Source: Thioalkalivibrio sp. ALJ7 (lineage in GTDB: Bacteria; Pseudomonadota; Gammaproteobacteria; Ectothiorhodospirales; Ectothiorhodospiraceae). From it: 64,000 bases of DNA. The stretch lies in assembly GCF_000376865.1 (NCBI RefSeq), contig NZ_AQXQ01000010.1, forward strand, positions 124,001-188,000. The letters run 5' to 3'. Position 1 is the first letter of the stretch. Each line of letters opens with the position of its first letter. Shown here piece after piece: positions 48,707 through 49,307 of the stretch. The notes beneath the pieces were generated by a model, which was given only the letters and a program-made list of their open reading frames with translations, ran no database searches and was not told where the DNA came from. A program made the position numbers and the translations under genes.

Positions 48707-48998
48707 AGGTTGTTTAAACCAGTCGAAAGGATCGGGAGGGGGCTGCGATCGATCGGGACTGACGCCAGTGCGAGCGGCTGTACCGTAGACGGATTACGCG
48801 GGGTCAGACGTGCGAAAGGGGCCACTTTAGTACCCTTAGCTTGAATCTGGCGGAGAGGGAGGGATTACTCGGCACGATGTGCCTTGTCCTTCGGGTCGTC
48901 ACCTGCGGTGACGTTCTGGCATCGCTGCGCGCTGCCGGCCAAACCATCTATTTTCTAACCCTCGGGTTCGAATCCCGGAACGCTGGGGCTGGAAACGC

Positions 48999-49022
48999 AA
49001 AAGGGGCCATTTAGGCCCCCTT
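48999..49022 (-). terminator. Terminator-like hairpin inside repeat unit
   Basis: Minus strand AAGGGGGCC-TAAAT-GGCCCCTTTT: stem of eight pairs, then TTTTGCG. It lies just after the second copy of the tRNA 3' end, as the true terminator lies after the tRNA itself. Confidence 0.6.
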
Positions 49023-49185
49023 GCTGAATTTGGCGGAGAGGGAGGGATTACGGCGACGTTGTCGCCGCCCTACGGGCCGCCTCCGCTGCGCTGCGGCGTT
49101 CCGATATCGCGATGCGCCATCGGTCGAACCATCGTTTCTGATTCCTCGGGTTCGAATCCCGAGACCTCAGGGGCCAAGACGTGCG

Positions 49186-49208
49186 AAAGGGGCCACTTGG
49201 ACCCCTTT
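49186..49208 (-). terminator. Terminator-like hairpin after tRNA-Ser(CGA)
   Basis: Minus strand AAAGGGG-(TCCAAGTGG)-CCCCTTT, then CGCACG: the stem has a small bulge. It begins nine bases beyond the tRNA CCA end and is probably the tRNA terminator. Confidence 0.65.
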
Positions 49209-49217
49209 GCTTGAATT

Positions 49218-49307
49218 TGGCGGAGAGGGAGGGATTCGAACCCTCGGTACTCGCGAGAGTACAACGGTTTTCGAGACCGCCCCGTTCGACCACTCCGGCA
49301 CCTCTCC
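49218..49307 (-). tRNA. tRNA-Ser (anticodon CGA)
   Basis: A 90-nt type II tRNA with encoded CCA: acceptor GGAGAGG/CCTCTCC, anticodon loop CTCGAAA (CGA), variable arm GTACTCTCGCGAGTAC, T-arm CGAGGGTTCGAATCCCTC. It reads UCG. The two serine tRNAs in this window share the acceptor stem and 3' end. Confidence 0.97.

Follow-up and report, generated by a model that had tools for sequence, protein, structure and literature searches.

Repeated units behind two tRNA-Ser genes

The stretch of DNA that we analysed (the window, 64 kb in length) carries two tRNA-Ser genes on its minus strand, and both are followed by units that end in a copy of the adjoining tRNA's own 3' end. The tRNA-Ser(CGA) gene (49218..49307; called by ARAGORN, 57.4 bits with the Rfam tRNA model) is the host of an array of two complete units of the same architecture, unit 1 (49031..49217, 187 nt) and unit 2 (48848..49030, 183 nt), and the tRNA-Ser(TGA) gene (43650..43739, ARAGORN) is followed by a single unit of 183 nt (43467..43649). 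Model R1 scores these three units at 122.6, 144.5 and 135.6 bits, respectively, each of them being a member of its training set. The copied stretch consists of the 19 nt from A58 to A76 of tRNA-Ser, with the CCA included. It closes unit 1 at 49031..49049, unit 2 at 48848..48866 and the Ser(TGA) unit at 43467..43485, always on the minus strand and always identical to the upstream tRNA at 19 of 19 positions. Across the window AATCCCTCCCTCTCCGCCA matches exactly five times, at 49218, 49031, 48848, 43650 and 43467 (minus strand throughout), and two of these matches lie inside the tRNAs themselves; the number expected from shuffles is 0, even with 2 mismatches allowed. Five exact 19-nt copies in 64 kb are far beyond chance. 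A previous inspection of the letters (hereafter the sequence-only reading) had noted that the last 19 bases of tRNA-Ser recur twice downstream at intervals of 183 to 187 bases, and this is what we find behind Ser(CGA), where the exact copies lie 187 nt and then a further 183 nt downstream; for Ser(TGA) the spacing is 183 nt.

In the Ser(CGA) array, an AAAGGGG..CCCCUUU hairpin stands behind the tRNA and behind each copy. The predicted fold places it right behind the tRNA at 49182..49210 and behind the unit-1 copy at 48997..49024 (both minus strand). The truncated third unit that had been suggested is present as a decayed hairpin only (about 48812 to 48847, minus strand). The unit behind Ser(TGA) has no hairpin of the AAAGGGG/CCCCUUU type. 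The description of a hairpin after each tRNA-like end therefore holds throughout the Ser(CGA) array and fails at the second locus, and what the two tRNA-Ser loci have in common is a unit with an exact copy, without this hairpin at Ser(TGA). The hairpins had also been taken for terminators. They are terminator-like in appearance, and an intrinsic terminator would combine a G+C-rich hairpin with a T-run; here the hairpin is found and the T-run is not, and a terminator scan gave no match on the minus strand at 48.8-49.3 kb. Since the hairpins are not followed by a U-tract and the scan has no match, the term terminator is unproven at these loci. Both Ser(CGA) units further contain an inverted T-arm, GGGATTCGAACCC, the reverse complement of the tRNA-Ser T-arm, at 49148..49160 in unit 1 and 48964..48976 in unit 2 (minus strand).

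Several smaller observations belong to the same region. Just upstream of tRNA-Ser(TGA) the sequence contains a truncated tRNA-Ser end, AATCCCTCCCTCTC (43810..43823, minus strand), and at the equivalent place in the relatives G002, G004, G009 and G011 there is an RtT remnant with matches ending in ..ATCCCTCCCTCTCGTGGC. A neighbouring pdxH-like gene has 91% identity to its counterpart in Thioalkalivibrio strain AKL19, which places the window in this genus. Two sub-threshold Rfam matches overlap tRNA-Ser(CGA): RF04351 (Plastid-psbl-rps4) at 49221-49272 on the plus strand, antisense to the tRNA, and RF02223 (sX4) at 49150-49322 on the minus strand, spanning the tRNA and its trailer. The overlaps suggest that both families could in part be modelled on tRNA-Ser.

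Relationship to the RtT repeats of Escherichia coli

Unit 2 matches the Rfam family RtT (RF00391) at 48848-48979 on the minus strand with 49.5 bits, which exceeds the gathering score of 45 bits. The Ser(TGA) unit falls short of that score with 39.1 bits (E 5.5e-05), and a unit behind tRNA-Gln(CTG) of the same genome reaches 36.4 bits; for unit 1, no match to RF00391 was reported at E<=1. The repeats that we fetched from the tyrT-tyrV locus of E. coli comprise four RtT units of 133-138 bits and follow the same plan as the units in the window, and in E. coli the rttR annotation ends, on its 3' side, with the A of the copied CCA. The parallel to tyrT that the sequence-only reading had drawn is thus well founded. 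Judged by these matches, the units are tRNA-linked repeats (TLRs) of the RtT class, and their relationship to the E. coli repeats is one of homology, beyond resemblance.

The first account of TLRs dates from 1978 (Egan and Landy 1978; see also Rudd 1999; both via PMC8144298), and their function is described as unknown. E. coli K-12 has 22 TLRs at ten loci, and TLR 3' ends are identical over 18-19 bp to the 3' end of the upstream tRNA or rRNA (PMC8144298). For RrB, a TLR linked to rrn, read-through of terminator 1 and probable RNase E cuts were described, with ends mapped just after the 5S and just after the copy (PMC8144298). RtT RNAs were detected by Northern blots in Actinobacillus pleuropneumoniae (PMC4986893), and in T. 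versutus AL2 and T. nitratis ALJ2 RtT sRNA is reported to be expressed, with upregulation at 10 C, the loci being unspecified (PMC8092127). T. versutus AL2 has the locus described here. A paper on pseudouridine cites the tyrT RNA, with no RtT result in its relevant passages. A function of rtT in the stringent response was considered and set aside, since the claim of a phenotype under amino-acid starvation was retracted in 1994 (PMC8144298). We also looked at the rrnB T1-T2 region of E. coli (L284, 5S to murB), where a TLR core, GACAAATCCGCCGGGAGCGGATTTGAACGTTGCG.., finishes with a repeat of the 3' end of the 5S; inspection of its sequence revealed no obvious 5' strand complementary to the 5S end.

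Distribution among relatives

Our survey covered about 730 genomes, namely 58 relatives, 370 genomes sampled from the class and 299 in a phylum sample. RtT matches are present in 34 of the 58 relatives, 54 of the 370 class genomes and 33 of the 299 phylum-sample genomes, with up to 17 matches in one Thioalkalivibrio genome. The sequence-only reading had named the absence of other copies in this or related genomes as a point against itself, and such copies exist. Seventeen of the 33 phylum-sample genomes with RtT belong to a single family outside the class (f195), in which the units carry the ends of their own tRNAs and the hosts include Ser, Gln and Asp tRNAs.

For most of these RtT loci we retrieved the sequence and identified the tRNA upstream with ARAGORN; the resulting set contains 199 units whose upstream tRNA ends in CCA. 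Intact copies are hosted by Gln, Ser, Tyr, Arg, Glu, Val, Lys and Asp tRNAs. The last 19 nt of the unit's own tRNA are reproduced exactly in 109 of the 199 units and at 18 of 19 positions in another 52, and among the 170 units having at least 17 matches the exact shared run is 18-19 nt long in 152. Nearly all units (189/199) are nearer to their own tRNA than to the end of any tRNA for another amino acid in the set.

In the genome under study, the copied end was found within 700 nt of three of the 38 tRNA genes checked: Ser(CGA) with two units and a remnant, Ser(TGA) with one unit and Gln(CTG) with one unit. The tRNA-Ser(GGA) and tRNA-Ser(GCT) genes of this genome (L003, L004) are followed by half-decayed units, which have kept the 5' part with its hairpin and inverted T-arm and lack the 3' copy. 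We rejected the idea that the units are a dispersed, BIME-like repeat: in this genome strong DNA and RtT matches occur only behind tRNAs, with weaker R1 matches elsewhere.

A 5' strand that follows the host tRNA

The inverted T-arm, which the sequence-only reading had correctly recorded in both Ser(CGA) units, makes better sense as one half of a closing helix: it forms the 5' strand, the copied end forms the other, and the 5' strand tracks the host tRNA. Examples of 5' strands are GCCGGCAGGAT for Gln(TTG), GGGGGAGGAT for Tyr and CCCCAAGGGGAT for Glu. With one unit per lineage and tRNA type, and by permutations that ignore the kinship of the genomes, the mean duplex energy of 85 units with their own tRNA end is -17.7 kcal/mol versus -12.1 after permutation (0 of 10,000 as good), and fixed-register pairing at the isotype-variable positions 63-72 amounts to 6.7 of 10 with the own tRNA versus 4.9 permuted (0 of 2,000). 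The consensus of the Thioalkalivibrio Ser units contains the closing helix characteristic of RtT, formed by GGAT:ATCC and UCGAACC:GGUUCGA. This helix is short compared with those of the Gln(TTG), Tyr and Glu units, which in Gln and Glu have 12-13 pairs at most. Compensatory changes are present at 10 of 35 pairs in the Thioalkalivibrio Ser units, core hairpins included.

In a second variant, the 5' strand is an exact reverse complement to 17-21 nt in the T-arm and variable region of its tRNA (21 nt in a unit behind tRNA-Ser(GGA)). When one unit per genome and tRNA type is considered, at least 7 consecutive nt (7-10) complementary to the 5' side of the own T-stem and the variable strand are found in 16 of 103 units, versus a permuted mean of 1.9 (0 of 5,000, genome kinship again ignored). 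As the extra bases of this variant are absent from the copied end, they can pair only with the body of the tRNA, or else they reflect the origin of the unit. That 5' strands fit their host tRNAs across the family is, together with the antisense variant, possibly the new part of these observations; we found no paper that states either, in a literature search that was thin in subscription journals.

Such pairing could mean that each unit acts as a strand-exchange switch on its own tRNA, with read-through lowering or delaying the output of tRNA. The 5' strand of the unit would pair either with the unit's own copy, which leaves a normal tRNA, or with the 3' half of the tRNA, which would then be captured while its 5' acceptor strand pairs with the copy. 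Several observations agree with this idea: the exchanged state appears in 91 of 96 joint minimum-energy folds, the gain from joint folding is 10.3 kcal/mol with the own tRNA versus 3.1 with swapped tRNAs, the joint fold in the window has -128.8 versus -116.0 for separate folds, and the 16 units just described offer complements to 7-10 nt of the tRNA that the copy lacks. However, predicted exchange is an automatic result of the symmetry between a copy and its complement, during transcription the tRNA is the first to fold and its processing is quick, and the Ser(CGA) units of the window possess the 13-nt T-arm complement and nothing longer. We therefore regard a switch as rather unlikely. A more general proposal, which seems to us at least as doubtful, is that TLR/RtT units are more than released small RNAs: as built-in strand-exchange partners, with a copy of the tRNA 3' strand and a complement to it that in one variant extends into the variable region, they would let a read-through transcript swap the acceptor and T stems of the tRNA and turn its maturation off, the pair being re-made at each newly colonised tRNA.

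Evolution of the arrays

The cores of units 1 and 2 are only 65% identical, although both copies are perfect (19/19). Unit 1 shares 94% of its bases with the unit in first position in Thioalkalivibrio ALJ21, and unit 2 shares 85% with the one in second position in ALE31. The observation that each is closer to a unit at the same position in another species than to its neighbour reveals that the array is old and that the order of its units was conserved; a recent tandem amplification of units 1 and 2 is rejected on the same grounds.

The arrays might nevertheless be passive or selfish tandem duplications that are converted by the adjacent tRNA gene, give rise to no functional RNA and retain their structure as a relic of their origin. 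The number of copies behind tRNA-Ser(CGA) varies between species from 0 to 2 plus remnants, the arrays of ALJT and ALJ16 have decayed, and in AKL19 the cores of units 1 and 2 are identical, which indicates homogenisation; all of this would be in keeping with passive repeats. Given the decay in ALJT and ALJ16, and given that only 3/38 tRNA genes have a copy, the RtT element is dispensable at a given locus. Outside Thioalkalivibrio the cores behave as if they moved between tRNA genes, with a similarity of 0.76 within a genome (different amino acids) versus 0.64 between genomes (same tRNA) in a comparison of only 11 pairs (0 of 2,000). In G051, for example, the cores of the Gln and Val units are 95% alike, and their ends and 5' strands match their own tRNAs. 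Inside Thioalkalivibrio, by contrast, the cores follow the tRNA over the genome (0.80 vs 0.67), a vertical pattern that is at odds with passive spread. The compensatory changes in the core, the re-matched 5' strands and the position-specific conservation likewise demand selection or a further mechanism, and we consider purely passive repeats an unlikely explanation.

A locus of ALJT (L236:5314-5450) provides a separate observation: the T-loop of a tRNA-Ser(TGA)-like gene passes at GGTTCGA directly into an RtT core ending in AATCC... The fusion looks as if recombination had occurred at sequence common to the T-arm and the unit.

Copies of a tRNA 3' end could also be attachment-site scars left by the integrases of genomic islands. 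An island in ALJ21 illustrates the process, in that a gene resembling a tyrosine integrase lies directly at tRNA-Ser(CGA) and the RtT array is displaced by about 38 kb. The far end of the island, where the displaced array lies, is marked by a 62-bp duplicate that reaches from the anticodon arm to the CCA (L239:4724-4900, L044:2201-2262). Yet this integration duplicated 62 bp at the very tRNA in question, whereas TLR copies measure 18-19 nt at all tRNAs, and the units are uniform, structured and free of genes. Duplication by an integrase was rejected on the difference in length, and an origin of the units as attachment-site scars is very improbable.

Probable read-through and processing of the units

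The explanation we favour, with a probability of about 0.65, is that the units are read-through RNAs that tRNA 3'-end processing cuts out as small structured RNAs. RNA polymerase would at times pass the hairpin behind the tRNA, and at the close of every unit the read-through RNA would then contain the copied tRNA 3' end, paired with a complementary 5' strand. Because the copied end is closed by a complementary strand, each unit ends like a tRNA. RNase E, followed by exonucleases that stop at the CCA, would act after the tRNA and again after each copy, and the products would be the tRNA and a structured small RNA of about 135-187 nt with a CCA end. By analogy, the release of a small RNA through 3' processing fits the CCA end of E. 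coli rttR and the processing of RrB; for Thioalkalivibrio sp. ALJ7 we infer both the processing and the role of the copied end. Evidence for read-through and processing comes from the match of the copies to their own tRNA, from covariation in the closing helix and in the core hairpins, from the conservation by position and the homology to RtT, and from the RtT expression reported for two Thioalkalivibrio strains. Against it stand the non-canonical form of the hairpins at these loci as terminators, the short closing helix of the Thioalkalivibrio Ser units and the dispensability of the element at a given locus. Gene conversion could be an alternative means of keeping the copies identical.

The survey makes a rule of what had been an E. 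coli curiosity: in many lineages of the Gammaproteobacteria, and in one family outside that class, the end of the unit and its 5' strand both follow the adjoining tRNA. This matching rule leads to testable predictions, namely 3' CCA ends in processing and pairing with the tRNA. Thioalkalivibrio is singled out for such work by its up to 17 matches per genome and the reported expression of RtT.

Comparison with known systems

The trailer sponge 3'ETS-leuZ, which is processed by RNase E, is likewise a small RNA that derives from a pre-tRNA's 3' trailer (cited in PMC8144298); unlike the units described here, its description in PMC8144298 mentions neither a copied tRNA end nor a tandem repeat. RrA, RrB and RrF, which lie between the paired terminators of rrn operons in E. 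coli, have a TLR core between two hairpins and a copied end of the upstream RNA in common with our units, but their host RNA is the 5S, and binding of CsrA and Hfq is known for them. The RtT/rttR repeats of tyrT-tyrV share the anti strand, the GAACC..GGTTCGA hairpin, the core hairpins CCCGAAGGG and the AATCC..CCA end; they differ in host, which is Tyr there and Ser or Gln here. With respect to the TLRs of E. coli in general, Thioalkalivibrio differs in having tRNA-Ser and tRNA-Gln as hosts and, in its Ser units, a 5' strand of the TTCGAACC form with a short closing helix. In both groups, however, one to five tandem units lie downstream of a tRNA, in a read-through position between hairpins, and 18-19 nt at their 3' end repeat the upstream tRNA or rRNA exactly.
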